A DNA stretch of 64,000 nucleotides, taken from assembly GCF_947623445.1 (NCBI RefSeq), contig NC_135241.1, forward strand, positions 22,570,501 to 22,634,500, written 5' to 3'. Position 1 is the first letter of the stretch, and every line of letters begins with the position of its first letter. Position numbers and translations under genes: made by a program. This document shows, in pieces, positions 1,585-17,059 of this stretch. The stretch comes from Clavelina lepadiformis. Its lineage: Eukaryota > Chordata > Ascidiacea > Aplousobranchia > Clavelinidae. The notes beneath the pieces were generated by a model that saw nothing but the letters and a program-made list of their open reading frames with translations, ran no database searches and was not told the DNA's origin.

Positions 1585-4500
1585 TTAAGCTGTATCTCCG
1601 TTCCTCTTATGTTCGGCCATGTGAGCCTTATAAAAACACTGCACAGAGAAGATCTCTTCACAAACCTCGCATTGATAGAGTTTAAGTTTTACGTTCGAAT
1701 CGTCGTTGAGTGCATTCGATTGGTCGAGTTTCGAAGGAAAGAGAGAGTCTTGCGTAAGAGTGATTACAGCATCCGGAGATTTCTCCTCTTCTTCCGGAGA
1801 CTGCTCTTTAGTTTTTGAAGATGTTGAAGTGTTTTGAGTCGTTGTGATCTTCTCCACAGAAGTGGAGTCCAGTTCCTGCTCATTCTTCTTCAAATCTGGA
1901 ACTTTAGTCGTCTCTCTACGCTCCCTGGATGAGCGCTTCCTCCTAGAAGTATCGCGATGGAGTTTCCGGATGTGGGAATTCAGTGCAGTTGTGTTGTTAA
2001 ACGACTCAGCGCATTCTTTGCACTTATAGTCCCTTTTTAAATTGGGCTTCGGCTCATCAACTTTCTTGATGCTGCAGGTCAAGCTGGGATCTGCTGTTGA
2101 ACAATAAATTACATTTCTGTGAGGCCCCGCGATCTATGATTATTTGTTTAATTCTTTAAAGCATGCGGAAAAACTTTACACATTTTCCAAAAACAATAAG
2201 TTGCAGCTGCCATGTATTTGAAACCATGAGACTAAAGCACTTGTTGGAGTTTTTACAAAATTATGAAACATTCTTGCCAGTTTCGTCGGCTTCAATATTG
2301 TCAAAATGAGACTTCTCCTGATGAGCAACGAGTGTCTTCTTCTTCCAGAAAGACTTCTTGCAAAAATTGCACGGATAAGGTTTGGTTGGTTCTGCTAAAA
2401 AATAGCAGTGTGTCTTATTTCATTTAGTAAAAGCAAAACCTTTACCCGTGGACATGTAGAGTGAAACAACGACATCATGTGTCCCTTTAATTTGTACTTT
2501 GCCCTTGATAAAATGGAGTTAGTTTGTTCAAAATGATCAGAAGAGCTATTTACCATCAGGTTCTTTTCTCTGTTTCTTATTGGGAAGTTCGACCAATGAC
2601 AGGCTTCTGCTCTTCCTCCTTTTTAAATTCTCCTTTAAATTACTTTTAACATCGGATTTGCTTCTTTTTATTGGTTGCTCTAAAAACACGATCTCGTTGA
2701 TAACCTCATTGCTTGTGACATCACAAGTACACGTGGAAGTGTAGAAAACATCAGTTATACTTACTGTGCGAGGACGATGATGGGACATTGGGAGAGGTAT
2801 TTGTGTTCACTTCAACGAGAGATCTGCCGCTGTAAAAACAATTTGTCTGCTTAGGAATCCCGTAACAACTCATTGTGTGTCCAAAGTGAACCCAACAATG
2901 ACAAACAACAACAACAGCAGCAACAAACCCATGAAGTTAACAACAACAATGAACCCGGCATTTGGGAAAATACCTCGATGTATCTGACTCCTCTTCCGCT
3001 GGTCGATCATCTTCGGAAAAGTGGGACTGTGGTTCTTCGAGGGAGGCAGGATTGGATGAGGAGACTTCTTGGGTGGGATCAGTATTAGGAGCAAGCAATT
3101 CTGTATTTGAAATAACCCAACCTATAGCAGCAAATGGAATTAGGATAAGAAAATACAACAAATTCCAGCAGGAATTGTCTTGATCGGTTTTCCACAACCA
3201 GTTTCGTTTCTAGTGCGTAAAATAATCTTACAAGGTTCAGACCAGCATTTTCTATCAATACATTTACATCTGTTTACTCCGGCATAAAAAAATGAGGTGA
3301 AACCGTCAACCAACAAATTAAACTTGCAGTCTAAATTCTGCTCCCACTCACCAGTGAGATCTTGATCGGATGCAAGAGCTTCTTCCAGTACAGAGCACAC
3401 AGGAGACAAACTGTTAATTTTTAATCTTTTTGTAGCGGAAATAATCTCATGAACTGTTTTCACGTTGCCGTCAACCGATATCTCGGAAGTGTATATGTAC
3501 TCCAGTATTCGATTCAACGCTGATGCTGAAAAAGTAAATTTCAAACAAATTGTTCAACTCCAATTATTCACTTGAAATCTTTAGTGACATGGAATAACCG
3601 TGAGCATACACTTTGTAATTCTAGTCTTTTTAGCTCTCTGACGTCTGTGTAGGATTCGACAAGCAATGTAAATTATAACTTAGAAAAGTATTGAGACAAC
3701 TTTACCTCCAAATGTGGAATAGGTTATGTGATAGAAAGCTTACCGGTGATCCCTTGCAGTTCTATGTAGCTCAGAGGAGATTGTTTCAAAGCATCTGATG
3801 CAAAGAGAGTGTGAAAGAACTCACTGCACGAAGCCAGTATCACTTTGTGAGCCTTAAAATTCTGACCTGGAGGTAAAAACAAGCAGTTTCAGGAGATAGT
3901 CGCACAAGTACCAAGAAGAAATTATTACATCAATCCAAGCAACAGCTAATTAAGCGTTAGATAGTTCTGACAACCTTGAGCAGAGAGTGTTATGTCACAT
4001 AACATCCCTGCCTCCTGCTGCCTGCGCAGGGAGTGAAGTAAGTTGATGGAATGGAGCCTCCGGGTTTCCTTCGGAGTGTTCATGGCTTGGGTGGAGGAAA
4101 GATCATCATCTAGTGGCAAACACGTGCTGTCCGCTGCTGTGTCTGAAAAAATGTGTTTGAGAGAGACAAGTCAGAAGTTAAACCCGAGGTGATTTCACAC
4201 CAAGCAGTAACATTTTTAAAATGAGTACAAAAACAATTTAAAATGAGCATTCATGTAGGTGAGTTTATACCGTAGTTATAATTAACCGGCAGCATGTTAA
4301 CTACGTTTTGTAGTAGAAACACTAAAACCGAACAATGTTTTTAAGGTATTTTTGGGGGCCGAAGCGGTCTCTTCAATTGCTCCAACAAATTTATTCTTTT
4401 GCAACTGCAGCAGAAAATTAGCAGTTGGTCTTTAAAAATAGCGGTCTCTTAAAAGATTTTAGCAGTCTACAAGGTCAAACCTGAATCCAACATATCAGAA

Positions 4501-7500
4501 TAACTAATGCGTAGCGATACCTTGAGCAGTGACAGGCGGTTCGTACTGTGTTGACATATCTTTCGTTTTTATCTTGAAATAAGTTCCAATGGATTTGGTG
4601 ACGGGTCGATATTGAGACATAAAGTTCTTTGTCTTTCTTCTGTACCTGTACTGGGTACTTTCATCCTGTTAAGCAAGGACTTATGTCAAGCAAAGCTAGA
4701 ATCTTAAATACCGGGGAACTTCGATGGTAAAGAGTTGAATAATTCGTATAACGTTGCATTGAGGTTTGAAAAAAAAACAATATTACAAATAAAAAATTGC
4801 GTTGTCCAAGCAACAGCCAAACAAACCTGTGTTTCAATGGTGACTTGAGTGGAGGATTCATTTTTTTCTTGGATGTTGGTTTGAGAAGATTGGTCACATG
4901 TGATGAGTTGAGGGATTTCTGACTTAACTTCTGCTGTTGGTGATGTTGTTTCAATCTTTGCTTCAATTGGTTCAACTGCAAGCAATGATATTTTTAAAGC
5001 TACGGTTAAATTTAACTTTGTATCTAATGCAGCTTGTGACTCTTTTGTGAAGGTTTTATGGTAGTTAGAGTCTAGAGAATGCAACTAATTGTGCGGATAA
5101 TCAGGTAACAACGAAAAGTGAGAAAAGCAGCTAAAGCATGAAAAAGAAACCTTTCACTTCAGGTTCTTTCTCGACTTTTTCTCCTTTTGCATCAGAGAAG
5201 TGCGAAATAACCCGATTGGTGGTCATGCCGTCAAAGCTGTGAGACTTCACATGGTCAGTGTTAGGCTCGAAGTTACTCTGACTCGATATCCAATGTTTCG
5301 TGTCGCTTAAATCATCGTCTAGGCTGTTGTATGCCGAGCTGCAGAAAATATCATCGATGATCTTGTAATTATGGTTACATAATTTTAATACTTGCATTTT
5401 TAAGCACACAGATTAGGAATTACTTCTCGGTCGACTGATCTTTCGCGTCTTCCACGGGATCCTGCTCCATGGAGTAACTTCCATTTTCTATCGGGATTAC
5501 TGGATACTCGTTTAGGTCGATCTTCAAAGTGTCATCATCGCTGTCCGACTTCTCTGCCTCTACTAAAGTTACTCACTTTAAGGTAAATGACTTTCGGAAT
5601 AGAGTTCACTCTTAATCATTTGAGAGGGAAAACCTTTGGTCTGAGGTGCGGTGAACGTGGGAGTGACGTTCTTAGATTCGAGAAATTCAAGGCGGCTAAG
5701 CTCTGCTTGCCGCTTGCGCAATTTTTCCTCTAACATTTCCAAAACTTCCAAACTCTCAGCATCCTAAAATACAAGGTTGTGACGATTTTACTCATTCTTA
5801 AAAATTCTATTTTAATCAGCCATGAAAAATAATATTGCAATCAGGTATTATTTTCATTTATTTTTCAGTCACGTGATGACGTGAATGCTATAAAATCTCA
5901 CCATCTCAATCTCTTCTTCCTCAATGACTTCTTCCACGGCCTGTTCGGTTGACGCCCTCTGATTCTCGTATTCAGATGATTGGGAAGAATTACGCCTGAT
6001 AGCACTAAGATATTTATTACATTTATCGAAGTCATTCATGCATGATGGCAGCTATGTGAGCAGCATAAACACACGTTTTACCTCTTGTAATGTGAACTGT
6101 GATCAACTGATGTTCTCTTGTGCTGGCCGTACTTCGCATCCGATTCTTCTTCTGAAAACTTTGGAGAAGTGGGAAGACCCTGACGAAGAAAACGGAGTAA
6201 GTAATGGCACCAAATCCGCATCCAGGAGGCAAGATGCATCTGTGTAACTCACAAGAGAGAGCGGGTTTCGTGAACGTTGTTTCTTCTTCGATCTCATTGG
6301 CCAGTTATGATCGATATTCTTCACTGACAAGTCCAACTCTTTCAGTAATGTCGATGAGAACACGGAATCCCAAGTTGATCGAAGTTTGTATAAGTCTCCT
6401 CTGGTTTTGCCATCACCCTGCATAAAATTAGAAAGAATTATATCATGTGAACTAAATTGTGACATAAACACAAGGTAAATCCATTACAAATGGAATTTGA
6501 AGTGCCATGATTCTACATTAACAATACATTCATATACACCCCGTTGCTTTCCCTTTTCAGAATACGTAATGCGTTATATAATTGTCACCTGTGGGTTACA
6601 TATTTATGCATGCATTTACCTTTTGAAAAATGCACATAAACGTTGACACAAGTTTGTGACTGAAAAGTTTCTTATACTGTCCACCAAAGTTTTTAACAAT
6701 GGAATCGATCAGATAAAGAACGGGCATCTTTTTCTTCGGTGCAGCCTGCAAGTAAAAACATTTTAGTTCTCTATTTTATTGAGACTTTATTAGTGTAGTT
6801 TCAGTTCGAAAAAAAATGAAGGTCAATCAACATGATTATAAACAAGCTATACCAAAAAACACTGTAAGCTATAACACTGACAGAGCAAAGTGAAATTATG
6901 ATGCAAAAAAGTTATGCACAAAAAATCATTGTTATACCAGACAAGAATTACGTGGTACATTAGAGAAGTGGACTATCAGAAAGTTCGATATGAGTGGCTA
7001 CATTCATTTTCATCGCCATATAATATCTGAACCACACCAGCAGCCACATTTTGGAGCATGGCTAAAACTTGAGTTCTAAAAATACCCATGTACCTACGTG
7101 ACCTGCACGACACACACTACATGAGAGCGATGTGGACATTTTATTCACTCTATATATTCTATTGGTTACAGTAGGTACAAGTTGGACAGGTAATTGCAAT
7201 GAAAAGCTGTGCTGTGTTAATACCACACAGACTCACATAGTGTACCGTTATATATGTTTTTGTGGGCAGTTCGGATCTTTTCAGTTTGGGGGCAGTGGAG
7301 AGAATGAATTTATGACATCACAATTATCAATAAAAAACCTGGTATGACACGCAAGTTGTGTAAAAAAACACGGCAAAAATGTTACAACAAGCAAGGTAAT
7401 TTAAATTTAACATTATACCTGAAACACTTGTGTTTGAATTATTCTGACAATATCCGAGGCAAAATTGGCATTCTCTTCTGCAAGAACGGTTAACATATTG

Positions 7501-7568
7501 ATGTGTGGCTTGCTATTGAAAGTTAGCTCGGCCAAAGATGCTTTGTATTCCGAAAGCACTGATTGCAT
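1585..7568 (-). CDS. CID-BTB/POZ-C2H2 zinc finger protein, 17 exons
   Basis: Exons, 5' to 3': 7419-7568, 6620-6745, 6253-6417, 6082-6179, 5902-6004, 5634-5763, 5424-5559, 5151-5338, 4827-4975, 4521-4665, 3975-4142, 3744-3866, 3352-3525, 2974-3100, 2765-2829, 2554-2679, 1585-2093. All junctions are GT-AG and keep one frame, giving 893 residues. Residues 1-147 match the PCF11 CID domain (FNSKPHINMLTVLAEEN, YLIDSIVKNFG, YKLRSTWD), which binds the phosphorylated RNA polymerase II tail. Residues 148-463 are acidic, Ser/Thr-rich linker. Residues about 492-600 form a BTB/POZ dimerisation domain (LCDITLSAQ, FKAHKVILASCSEFFHTLF). The last exon has two C2H2 fingers (C-X2-C-X12-H-X4-H and C-X2-C-X12-H-X3-H). 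A nuclear role in transcription or RNA processing is inferred. An in-frame ATG at 4555-4557 could start a separate BTB protein, so two genes remain possible. Confidence 0.72.
2147..2152 (-). terminator. Possible poly(A) signal, short isoform
   Basis: ATTAAA on the minus strand, about 110 bases after the stop codon of the alternative zinc finger exon at 2261-2391. It would allow that exon to act as a terminal exon. Positional evidence only. Confidence 0.3.
2261..2391 (-). CDS. Alternative last exon with one C2H2 finger
   Basis: This exon follows an AG acceptor at 2392 and enters in the same phase as the 1585-2093 exon, so exon 2554-2679 can splice to either. It encodes 43 residues with one clean finger (YPCNFC, then H-X4-H in VAHQEKSHF) and its own stop codon; using it gives a 767-residue protein. 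Choosing between terminal zinc finger exons is a known device in BTB-zinc finger genes such as lola and tramtrack of Drosophila. A GC donor late in this exon (after GAAACTG) would also be phase-compatible with the next exon, so inclusion as an internal exon cannot be excluded. Confidence 0.6.
2894..2950. repeat. CAA/CAG-type simple repeat in an intron
   Basis: Imperfect run of CAA and CAG triplets between exons 2974-3100 and 2765-2829 of the CID-BTB gene. On the minus strand it is a TTG/CTG run. It makes spurious glutamine- or leucine-rich open frames that are not coding. Confidence 0.7.
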
Positions 7569-10748: not shown

Positions 10749-12811
10749 CACAGGCCAACAAAAAAAAATTTTTTTCAAAAGGCATGATATGTTAGATCGA
10801 TTTAGGGGTATATCAGGGGCGCTGAGTCCGAAAATGCCATTACTTTTGCTGAATTGGCTCTAGTTTTTGAGATATTGCTTTTTCCTAAATACGCCGTGAA
10901 AAGTTAAAAATGTATGCTAGTGAGTAACGTAGGTCAACAAAAACTGAAGCCATGTGAAGCAGCTATTTAGTTTTGCCCAAATGTTGAGTTGTCTGGCACA
11001 AATTTCTCGCTTGAGAGGTAAATAAGACCTTAGATTAGTTTATATCATCTCCCATCAAGCACTAACATAAGCCTTAACATCAACACATAGCATAACATTC
11101 TTGATTCGGCAACAAAAATAACGTTTTACCGGGACAGAGAAGAAATGTTAATGCAATTTTTCTCTCAAGAAGATAATTTTTTGTACTGTAAAAACATCGA
11201 AGGACTTCTTTCATCTATGGGTCTACTAGAGTATAAACCAGAAGAATGGAGGTCATTCATTGACAGCTCCAAAAAAGGCTTGAAATGTGTGCTACTTCAC
11301 AACGAAAATAAGTTTGCCTGTGTTCCAATTGGCCACCCAGTCGTTTTAAAGGAACACTACCAAAGTGTAAAGATGATCTTGAAGAAACTTTCTTATACTG
11401 AGCATAACTGGGAGATATGCGTTGATTTGAAAATGTTCAACTTTCTCTTAGGACAACAAGGCGGCTACACCAAGTATCCCTGCTTTATTTGTTACTGGGA
11501 TAGTCGGACCACTGATCAACGCTGGATTAAAAAGGAATGGCCCATACGTGAACAGCTTGTGCACGAAGATAAAAACATTGTAAATGAACCTTTGGTCATT
11601 TGTAATCGCATCATTTTACCCACATTGCACATCAAACTGGGTTTGATGAAACAATTTGTCAAGGCTTTAGATTAGATAAAGATGGTGCTTGTCTTGATCA
11701 CCTGTGCAACGTATTTCCTGGTCTTAGTATTGAAACGCTGATAGCAGGAATTTTTGATGGGCCACAAATACGAAAATTAATTCAATATTAAGTTTTTCCG
11801 TCACATATGACTGAAGTTGAGTAGGCAGCCTGGCACTCTTTCGTTGCAGTTGTAAAAGGATTTCTTGGAAGCACAAAAGCAAGCAACTATGTGGATCTCA
11901 TAGAAGTAAAGCTTACAAACTTTCAAGCTCTTGGATCAAGGATGAACATAAAAGTTCACTATCTATTTAGTCACTTGGATCGCTTCCCTGAAAACATTGG
12001 AAATATGAGTGAGGAACAAGGTGAAAGGTTTCATCAAGATATCAAATTAATAGATGAGGATATCAAGGTAGATGTGATACTCACATGATGGCAGATTACT
12101 GCTGGTGCCTAATGCGAAGCTGTCCACAACCAAACTACAGGCGAAAGTCGTACAAGAGAATTTTCCTGCAGATGACTTTAAGCTAATTTGAGTAATTAAC
12201 TAGAGTGCATCTAAGAACTTCACTAATGCACATCCTGAGATGGGTATATTTTTTCGTATAGTGTTTTGTTTTGAATACTCCGTGGCAAATAAAAAAATTG
12301 ATTGCTTGTTTATTTCGTCTGTTTTTACAAGTTGTCGTCTTTCTTGTGCTGGCTTAGGCATACTTGGTTTGTTATTACCAAATTACTGCTATTTATTGTT
12401 CACTTCAAGCAAGTTTTAATGTGGTATTGGAAGCTTAGTCTCACACATTGCAATATGTTAAGAGAATCTGAAAAGACGAATAAATGGGGCATTTTCTGTG
12501 TTGAATATACGGAAAAGAATAGACTTATGCAGCACCTCTTCTTTTAGTTAATCTCATTGTGTCTTTAGCTTTTGCTCATTCTTGTGGTTTTAGTGCAGAT
12601 ACACTTACAACAACATTTAATATAGGCTGTTCCTTAAGATAAAATGCAACCTACTTTCAAAATTAAAAGGTATCAAAAATATCAAAATTCGCTAATATCT
12701 TAAAAACTAGAGCCAATTTGCAAAAACTAATGGCATTCTCGAGCTCAGCGCCCCTGATATACCCTAAAATCGTTCTTACCTTCCATGCCAAAATTTTTTT
12801 GTTGGCCAGTG
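10749..12811 (+). mobile_element. DNA transposon with long inverted repeats, decayed
   Basis: Inserted in unit 1 only. Termini are CACAGGCCAAC and GTTGGCCAGTG, flanked by TTA at 10746-10748 and 12812-12814; the matching site in unit 2 (near 18206) is empty. Inverted similarity extends about 120-130 bases inward and includes a shared GGTATATCAGGGGCGCTGAG-like core. The interior holds the remains of a transposase. The terminal CAC and short target duplication recall CACTA-type elements, but the superfamily is not established here. Confidence 0.8.
11091..12188 (+). pseudogene. Degenerate transposase remnant
   Basis: The longest open stretch (11145-11675, 176 codons) has motifs I recognise from an animal transposon-borne protein usually annotated only as uncharacterized: FIDSSKKGLKCVLLHN, GGYTKYPCFICYWDSR and LHIKLGLMKQFVKALD. 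Similarity resumes after it in pieces, including AGIFDGPQIRKLI, an open stretch at 11891-12088 with YLFSHLDRFPEN and EEQGERFHQDI, and then MMADYCWCLMR. In-frame stops at about 11673 and 11789 and a stop near 11822 interrupt it, and the N-terminal part is missing. A C-X2-C pair sits after the presumed catalytic Asp region. Confidence 0.7.
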
Positions 12812-14250: not shown

Positions 14251-17059
14251 TCAGATGGCGTCGCTTTTAAATAAATTGTCCTTGAGATTTTGCGTCTTTC
14301 CTTGCAATGACGAAACACTGAAATAACAGATAAAGTTGAACACGGATTCGATTTTTCAGAAAAACTTTAGCAGCAAAGCAATGTACCTTCCAATGTGTTG
14401 AAACAGCGATGGTTTGTGAGGAGGCATTTTTAGCTCTCTCCTTTTATTGCATTGTTGGGCGTTCTCGTCATAACTGCAGACCGCTGACGCAACGTAGTCC
14501 AGCTGGAAAAATGAACGATAAAGGTTCAATGAGGTTCAGACAATAATAAAACCCCCATCGACCAGTCCATAAATGGATCGTAAGGTATGAGCACATCAAA
14601 GGAAAACACAGTTGCTGTCGTTTCTAAATTACTTTTTCATCCCATCAAATGTTTTAAACTTAACAAATCGAAGCACAGCTTAAAAAATACAAGTGCAGAA
14701 AGGTTATAGGTTAACATAGAAAAACTATATAGCTGACACCTTATAGGGTGCACGTCAAATTCCTAATAACCACATAACACTTGACGAATTTCGGTAGTTT
14801 GTTTTGGACACATTGGCTCGGCTTAGGCCTACTCAGCAAAAGTCGTTATGCTCGAAGCGTATACGGCGGAAAAACAAAAATGCGTAACAAAGAATCTTTT
14901 CATTCGTGTAAGCTGCCAACATACCTGGAGCCAGTCGAGCGGTTTTTTATTCCAGAACGTGTGGATGAACGAAGCATATGATGGAAGAGTTTCGGCGCGG
15001 AAAAGTTTTCCAATCGCTCCCAAATTACAAAAAGAAATATAAAAGTAATTTTCCATCGATCTTCGGTTAGCCTCCTGCATAGAAATCATATTACTCAACC
15101 TGTGTCACACATTGAGCATAAGGTATAGTTAACTTTTCTTAAAATGACGACGACTTAATTAGCAAGCAGAAGTGACCTTTAAAAACCAAATTGGGGGTCT
15201 TATTATCCTACAGTCACCCACAACGCAGCAACTATTACGTCACCTTCATTATCGCTCCGATGTACCCATGGCTGGCTATGACGTCATCTTCCATCATGAG
15301 GTAATATTTAGGTGAAAGGTTATAGATGTACATCATGAGGAAGATCTGGTCCAGATTCTGTTTCGATCTCCACTTCACTCGGTCCAGCGCGTCGTTAAAA
15401 CTGGACTGAAGCACTTTTTCCCATGGGGGGTAGTAACTTTTAGGTGGACTAATTAGCTGCAATAGAAATTTGTGAGATTGGCGGGGGTAAAAACAATCGC
15501 TAAAAACAAACATATCAAAATGGCCGGCTATTACTCAACAAACTCACAAAAATAGGAACAATACAGTTTGACAGCGTAGTCTAAAAGCAAATATAGTTTC
15601 CTTTCGGGATGAGCGATAATCGTGATGTCACTGAAGTAGTACTAAATAATTCAACTCTAAACTTTCAGTTTTCATTCATAAACTTATGTATAGTTACTTA
15701 GCCTGTGGTTGTGTAATTTATTGTTGAAGAACTGGATGCTTTAAACGTATACTTTGCTTTGTGGGGCGTTTGACCCGGCCGTTAAAACGTTTTAAAATTA
15801 AATTGTAATGATACGGCTGTAAAGGGAATTAATTTCCTTTTTACTTTCTCAGCCGCTTCTGAATTATTAAAGCTCTTCGCTGTTCTCACGATTGATATCG
15901 ATACAAGTATTGGGCTTGTTTGGGAATAAACACTGAAGTGAAACCTGTAATATCCCATCTTCAATGTGCTTCTGATAGCTGCTTTGCAATGAGTGCGAAA
16001 GATCACGTAAAAACTCTTCGTCAGTCTCGCCGACGTAAACAAGGATTCTAGAATCAACGGAACGATCAACCTGATTCTTCAGAAGGGAATCGATTGTTTG
16101 CGAAAGATAGGATACTCCCTGCCTCTGCCAGATAGAAAATACAACAAAGATTGAATTGAAATTGAAATCGTTTGTATTGATTTTGAATGCAAACAAATTG
16201 CAAAAACACGGCAAATCGTGGTCGTATTGCGCAAACCGCTCGTAGGAGTGAGTGACACTTATTTTAACTGAATGATTGTTTCCAATTTCAATCACGGTCG
16301 GTTATAATTAGAACTGATGTACAAATTGTGTGAAATGAAAACATCTTATGACATAACAATAACAATCACATTTGCATCATAAACATACCTTCACTGTGGG
16401 TATTCCTATTACGACGTCGGCGTTTTTCGGTATCTGACCCAACTCAAAGCCTGGGCTGGGTGCTTTTAGGTCCCCTGAGAGGGGAAATACCGGATCTAAG
16501 GGGTGAAAATAGACTTTTTCACCGGGTACAATTGGTTCATCTTTTACGTTTGCAACGAAGCTCTTTGATTCTAACGACTGCAAAAAAGCACATCAAAAAA
16601 ATTGTTAACCGTAAATGGATGAGACATATTTGTTTTTAAAGAAAACAAACGTTTGTCAGGAGACCATACTCCATAGGAATAGTCAGTATGTTTTATGGCC
16701 ACAGTAACATGATCCTGTATAAATTTTAAACTCTGTCTAAGTAACTTTTAGGATGAAGGTTTATATCGCAATAAAACTTTAACAAGAAACTGAGAAAAAT
16801 AGCTTGGAACGCACGATTTTTTCAGGTAAAATACCACCAGCTTAACTTAAATTGTAGCACTGACCGTGATAATCGCAGCCGCTTCGGTTTCAACATCGAC
16901 ATCTTCTTGTGCTTGTATATCTTCTTGTACCGGTTCTGCTTTTCGAACTTCTTTCGAACCGCCGGTCGACAAGAAGTCAAAGTAATAGACAAATACAAAC
17001 ACATAGAACAATGCCGCGGCCAGCCATATGTTGCGCTTACGTAGTAACACGGCTGGCAT
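14251..17059 (-). CDS. MGAT4-like glycosyltransferase, copy 1 (complete)
   Basis: Exons 5' to 3': 16865-17059, 16389-16577, 15945-16124, 15244-15456, 14925-15074, 14387-14502, 14251-14317; 369 residues. The first five exons are all multiples of three and in phase 0. A short cytoplasmic tail (MPAVLLRKRN) and a hydrophobic segment at about residues 12-30 give a type II Golgi-type signal anchor. GT54 family marks follow: VVIGIPTVK (120-128), VGETDEEFL, ISPPKSYYP, WRSKQNLDQIFLMM, YYLMMEDD with the EDD metal site at 244-246, LGAIGKLF, and PSLFQHIG (340-347). MGAT4 enzymes add beta-1,4-GlcNAc to the alpha-1,3 mannose arm of N-glycans. The protein stops where the C-terminal lectin domain of MGAT4A/B would begin, so its length resembles MGAT4D (GnT1IP), a regulator of MGAT1. 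Enzyme versus regulator cannot be decided here. Confidence 0.87.

Follow-up and report, generated by a model that had tools for sequence, protein, structure and literature searches.

PCF11 is a CID-bearing cleavage and termination factor, and in SCAF8 and RPRD1A/B the partners of the CID are RNA-binding or coiled-coil modules. BTB domains, for their part, usually open the proteins that contain them. To our knowledge, no family joins a CID to a BTB domain and zinc fingers, and no protein combining a CID or Pcf11 with BTB was found among the titles and abstract openings listed for the open literature, which these cover in part. The window analyzed here, a stretch of 64,000 nucleotides from the ascidian Clavelina lepadiformis, contains a chain of exons that quite probably represents one gene with one mRNA and a single fused product of 937 residues, in which an N-terminal PCF11-type CID would be followed by an acidic linker of 334 residues rich in SQ/TQ, then by a BTB/POZ domain for dimerisation and lastly by three C2H2 fingers that stand apart from one another.

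The chain lies on the minus strand (7568-1585) and comprises 18 exons and 17 introns of compatible phases, with 937 codons and no internal stop (Table 1). It runs from an ATG at 7568 to a TAA at 1587-1585, and an AATAAA is found at 1523, 62 nt past the stop. The first-pass annotation had described seventeen GT-AG exons in one frame; the open, phase-matched chain stands, but the count does not, and only 16 of the 17 introns are GT-AG, intron 17 (2277-2094) being GC-AG. If intron 17 is left unspliced, the frame closes at a TAA at 2263-2261 and one finger is left. Among Ciona introns, 556 of 113,879 are GC-AG according to PMC2760879. Entry in frame from exon 4827-4975 into exon 4521-4665, also claimed at first reading, was confirmed in coordinates and phase in the spliced chain, and the ATG reported at 4555-4557 (minus strand 4557-4555) is present and in frame in exon 10. 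By codon score, every one of the 18 exons reads best in the claimed frame when the three sense frames are compared, and 16 of the 18 still do so when all six frames are considered, an antisense frame scoring higher in exons 12 and 15.

Table 1. Features of the minus-strand exon chain and of two of its introns (window positions).
Feature	Positions	Strand	Basis
Exon 1: ATG and N-terminal portion of the CID, 50 aa, phase 0 end	7419..7568	-	length and phase as in C1 PCF11 exon 1
Exon 2: CID with DSIVKN stretch, phase 0	6620..6745	-	chain, Pfam, PDB match
Exon 3: last portion of CID, phase 0	6253..6417	-	chain, Pfam, PDB match
Exons 4-8 (6179-6082, 5995-5902, 5763-5634, 5562-5424, 5338-5151): acidic linker	5151..6179	-	chain, codon score
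Exon 6: coil-like stretch in acidic linker	5763-5634	-	
Exon 9: linker with SQ/TQ cluster	4827..4975	-	
Intron 9: gene boundary suspected in the first-pass annotation; no AATAAA/ATTAAA	4666..4826	-	
Exon 10: linker, SQ/TQ cluster continued, in-frame ATGs 4620 and 4557	4521..4665	-	
Intron 10: AATAAA at 4395, in-frame TAG 4506-4504	4143..4520	-	
Exon 11: last portion of linker, ATG 4083, beginning of BTB	3975..4142	-	
Exons 12-13 (3866-3744, 3525-3352): remaining BTB/POZ domain	3352..3866	-	chain, Pfam, PDB matches
Exons 14-16 (3121-2974, 2829-2765, 2679-2554): low-complexity, basic linker	2554..3121	-	chain, codon score
Exon 17: first C2H2 finger; GC donor	2278..2394	-	chain, Pfam
Exon 18: second and third C2H2 fingers, TAA stop	1585..2093	-	chain, Pfam

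Elsewhere in the window, positions 15870-64000 of the minus strand are occupied by a tandem array whose units lie mostly about 5.66 kb apart, with two spacings of about 6.2 kb. An MGAT4-like piece (VGETD...) recurs in it at nine places and a second repeated ORF at eight; the single MGAT4-like copy tested (15870-16301) matched PF04666 with an E-value of 1.3e-8, below the Pfam cut-off. A tandem-repeat finder with a longest period of 500 returned nothing on this array. On the plus strand, an open frame of 194 residues (11091-11672) had no Pfam match.

Searched against Pfam, the spliced 937-aa product yielded a CID at residues 10-119 (E 7.3e-13), a BTB domain (PF00651) at residues 502-603 (E 8.2e-24, 84.3 bits) and a zf-C2H2 match at residues 791-814 (E 6.8e-9). 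All three domains named in the first-pass annotation were thus recovered above the Pfam cut-offs. Among the finger models, PF00096 exceeds its cut-off in a single stretch and PF13894 does so in two; the third finger was recognised by eye. Between the CID and the BTB domain lie the 334 residues of the linker, a probably flexible segment that might serve as a kinase target. The best PDB matches of the CID are yeast Pcf11 (2bf0/1sz9), with SCAF8/RBM16 and RPRD1A/B also matched, and those of the BTB domain are the ZBTB17-BCL6 (4u2m) and ZBTB17-NAC1 (4u2n) constructs, followed by ZBTB7A and ZBTB17. The DSI-KN stretch of yeast Pcf11, which we take to line the tail-binding groove, is kept in the window CID. 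When the CID family model was run against the whole genome, six matches were listed and the window gene was not among them, probably because introns cut its CID. The fingers are parted by 30 and 92 residues (hand count), and a sequence-specific DNA-binding array is therefore doubtful. Hence, the role in DNA-bound dimers that had been put forward for this protein is weakened, since its fingers are isolated and form no tandem TGEKP-linked array; they may instead contact nucleic acid or protein.

A genome search with the window CID located a second PCF11-type CID on contig C1. This locus matches Pcf11_helical (PF20845) with an E-value of 2e-10 and Pcf11_C weakly, below the cut-off (E 0.0011); finger sequences resembling those of PCF11 were also recognised there by eye. 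Of 130 aligned residues, 68 (52%) are identical between the two CIDs, exon 1 comprises 50 codons in both genes, and exons 1-3 join at phase 0 in both, the C1 boundaries having been set by eye. In the window protein, PF20845 gave no match at E-values up to 0.1, and no Pfam match was obtained for the Clp1-binding and C-terminal PCF11 regions, for which the models perform poorly here (Pcf11_C is weak even on C1). A whole-genome search with PF11526 (Clp1-binding) returned nothing, though its controls were also silent. The presence on C1 of a PCF11 with its helical domain rules out the window gene as the only PCF11 of this genome. Since an ordinary PCF11 remains on C1 and the helical domain finds no match in the window copy, the window holds a diverged, partial copy. 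The resemblance of exon 6 to the coil of PCF11 was set aside as evidence, 38% of shuffles being equally good.

When 756 of the 937 residues (the CID omitted) were searched against the genome, no second copy of the linker was listed among the 59 of 476 first-look candidates that were scored, which counts in favor of a single gene. A BTB relative on C1, picked for its identity (44% across 54 residues, other places giving stronger E-values), provided no parent gene; its frame is open across the place matching window intron 11.

The evaluation of such a chain in an ascidian must take trans-splicing into account. The 16-base Ciona spliced leader, presumably ATTCTATTTGAATAAG, has 836 forward and 647 reverse exact matches in the 209-Mb genome (95 contigs), whereas the reversed control has none, and more than half of 100 matches listed sit in an array on contig C6. 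This array bears the ascidian spliced-leader 16-mer near 12.14-12.21 Mb, mostly at a spacing of 745 bp. The Clavelina lepadiformis genome has a spliced-leader system, and two abutting operon genes are therefore a serious rival to a single fused gene. According to PMC2760879, about 20% of Ciona genes are in operons, their genes abut without intergenic DNA, and gene prediction often wrongly fuses them. For this reason, the operon explanation was tested at every candidate boundary.

Intron 4 looks like the junction of an abutting operon pair: exon 5 is preceded at a distance of 23 nt by an AATAAA at 6018 (6018-5996), and an in-frame TAA is formed at the exon 4 donor. Exon 5, however, attains a codon score of 13.0 bits, against a maximum of 9.1 among open 31-codon pieces in 20,000 random draws, and in a second run its score was reached by fewer than 5 of 100,000 draws. 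It has no in-frame ATG ahead of its last codon and, being strongly coding, must be spliced to upstream coding sequence. An operon boundary at intron 4 is hence contradicted by the coding signal of exon 5, and a start at the last-codon ATG costs 33.0-34.4 bits.

The chain was also examined with a simple gene parser, its splice matrices drawn from 14 introns of the chain (all except 9, 10 and 17) and a small number from PCF11. With these trained matrices, one 18-exon gene beats the best free split with a margin of 7.3 or 5.1 bits, according to the start rate chosen, and the parse reproduces the chain exons save for the end of exon 13 (3304 instead of 3352) and, at one start rate, a start at 7496. 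With generic matrices one 18-exon gene is ahead by 7.5 or 6.0 bits; the corresponding parse at a start rate of 1/1000 shifts boundaries of exons 6, 7, 13 and 17, ending exon 13 at 3232, and replaces exon 1. The significance of these margins was gauged on 48 chimeras joining the CID part to six unrelated loci, out of eight tried (L003 and L004 were dropped for having too little flank, and L005 contributed a 150-nt flank only). Fusion was preferred in 39 of the 48 (12/16, 13/16 and 14/16 per cut) and reached at least 7.3 bits in 11. Because the parser fuses unrelated genes this readily, its preference for one gene is weak evidence for fusion, and it was dropped as evidence on its own. Applied to the C1 loci, the parser separated PCF11 from the neighbouring gene with a margin of 8.1 bits and left the front of PCF11 undivided with one of 3.1 bits. 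In none of the 48 chimeras did the fused parse place a single exon across the downstream ATG with 45 nt or more of it lying upstream, as the window gene does with 59 nt, a limit that was chosen knowing this latter value; in three of the 48, all from L006, the downstream part opened with an exon that started 26 nt upstream.

The remaining candidate boundaries are introns 9 and 10. The first-pass annotation had taken a split at intron 9, with a start at 4557, as the main alternative, yet of the real alternatives, which are two, this is the weaker one: dividing the chain at intron 10 fits better, given the in-frame TAG shortly past the exon 10 donor, the AATAAA at 4395 and a BTB domain that starts just after ATG 4083, as it does in ordinary BTB proteins. 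Under such an arrangement, a CID-plus-linker gene would end at this TAG, just inside the intron, and an abutting BTB-finger gene of the same operon would be trans-spliced to the leader at 4142 and start at ATG 4083, behind 481 residues of the chain. The leader array on C6, the share of Ciona genes found in operons (PMC2760879) and the parser, whose best two-gene split falls in intron 10 with trained matrices, all speak in its favor. Nonetheless, we regard it as unlikely. It demands that the 19 codons ahead of ATG 4083 be open, coding-like and in the right frame by chance, at a level reached by 1.4% of random against 42% of coding pieces, and that their likeness to the upstream linker in LDDDLS and STQ also be fortuitous. 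The hexamer LDDDLS occurs both in exon 8 and in exon 11 before this ATG (a six-residue word recurs in 1 of 3000 shuffles), and seven SQ/TQ motifs fall within the 118 residues that lead from exon 9 up to ATG 4083 in exons 9-11 (shuffle P 0.007), both features having been picked post hoc. Moreover, the AATAAA, the sole AATAAA/ATTAAA of the intron, is 253 nt ahead of exon 11, whereas Ciona operon genes abut (PMC2760879). With generic matrices the best split moves away to a stop at 2937 and a start at 2788, and a fixed start at 4083 is worse than one gene by 10.0-10.5 bits, though the parser is prone to fusion. Scored with the trained matrices, the donor of intron 10 ranks at the 75th percentile among GTs and the acceptor at the 93rd among AGs, a point that counts against a single gene.

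A division at intron 9, with the second gene starting in exon 10 at ATG 4557 (or 4620), draws on the occurrence of these in-frame ATGs, on the existence of ascidian operons (PMC2760879) and on the intron 9 acceptor, which is the weakest of the 17 by a trained matrix that held this intron out (82nd percentile of AGs, the donor being at the 99th of GTs). We deem it highly improbable: the 161-nt intron holds neither AATAAA nor ATTAAA, the two canonical signals checked; the 36 codons ahead of ATG 4557 and the 15 ahead of ATG 4620 are open and coding-like, at levels reached by 1.9% of random pieces (against 82% of coding pieces) and 2.9% of random pieces, respectively; the SQ/TQ cluster spans the junction; and, with the same caveat about the parser, one gene is ahead of these starts by 12.0-15.5 bits. 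A locus with several putative products, comprising the fusion together with CID-only mRNAs (from retention of intron 3 or 6, or terminating beyond exon 10) and/or mRNAs for the BTB-finger part that begin at an internal leader site, is distinctly unlikely in our estimate; it is consistent with the stop met on retention of intron 3 or 6, with the stop and AATAAA of intron 10 and with a T-run and AG ahead of 4142. The points that argue against a single gene are the spliced-leader array, the frequency with which prediction wrongly fuses operon genes, a fusion-prone parser trained mostly on the same chain, the splice-site percentiles of introns 9 and 10, a BTB domain so far from the N-terminus, and the lack of significance of the exon 6 likeness to the PCF11 coil. 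Taken as a whole, continuity across introns 9 and 10 is favoured, and the single CID-BTB-finger product first proposed, from one putative mRNA, is the better-supported reading of the chain.

Assuming a single CID-BTB-finger protein, its origin would lie in a partial PCF11 duplicate (exons 1-3, encoding the CID) that became joined to a BTB zinc-finger gene. Judging from what is known of these families, the BTB domain would pair two molecules, enabling two CIDs to hold on to the Pol II tail in its phosphorylated form, and the fingers together with the BTB domain might bring corepressors or nucleic-acid contacts. Since no match to the helical, Clp1-binding or C-terminal regions of PCF11 was found in the window copy, the fusion protein should not itself assemble the cleavage machinery, and competition with PCF11, or its modulation, at chosen genes would be likelier than a direct role in termination. 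On balance, we lean towards a lineage-specific duplicate of the PCF11 CID captured by a BTB zinc-finger gene, the product of which would act as a dimeric holder of the Pol II tail that recruits BTB partners or contacts nucleic acid, and would thus antagonise or modulate PCF11-driven termination at selected genes. Such a protein would couple a Pol II-tail reader directly to a BTB/C2H2 regulator, provide a natural test of whether a CID fused to a gene-regulator module can steer termination at chosen genes, and represent a clear chordate case of a new domain combination arising through partial gene duplication. Should the chain comprise two genes, it would stand as a warning example of ascidian operon neighbours that mimic a perfect in-frame fusion.

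The predicted fusion can finally be set against the described systems that it resembles. Like the BTB-C2H2 factors ZBTB7A, ZBTB17 and BCL6, it has a ZBTB-type BTB domain followed by C2H2 fingers, but in ZBTB factors the BTB domain is N-terminal and the fingers are tandem and TGEKP-linked, whereas in the window chain the BTB domain lies at residues 502-603 and the fingers are isolated; an N-terminal BTB domain of the ZBTB kind would be obtained here if the chain were two genes. With SCAF8 and RPRD1A/B it shares a CID fold joined to further modules, although the partners in those proteins are not a BTB domain and C2H2 fingers. It also resembles PCF11, which has its CID at the N-terminus and with which the window gene has identical boundaries and phases across exons 1-3; beyond the CID the two differ, the window protein lacking a match to Pcf11_helical or to the PCF11 C-terminus and carrying in their stead a BTB domain and C2H2 fingers.
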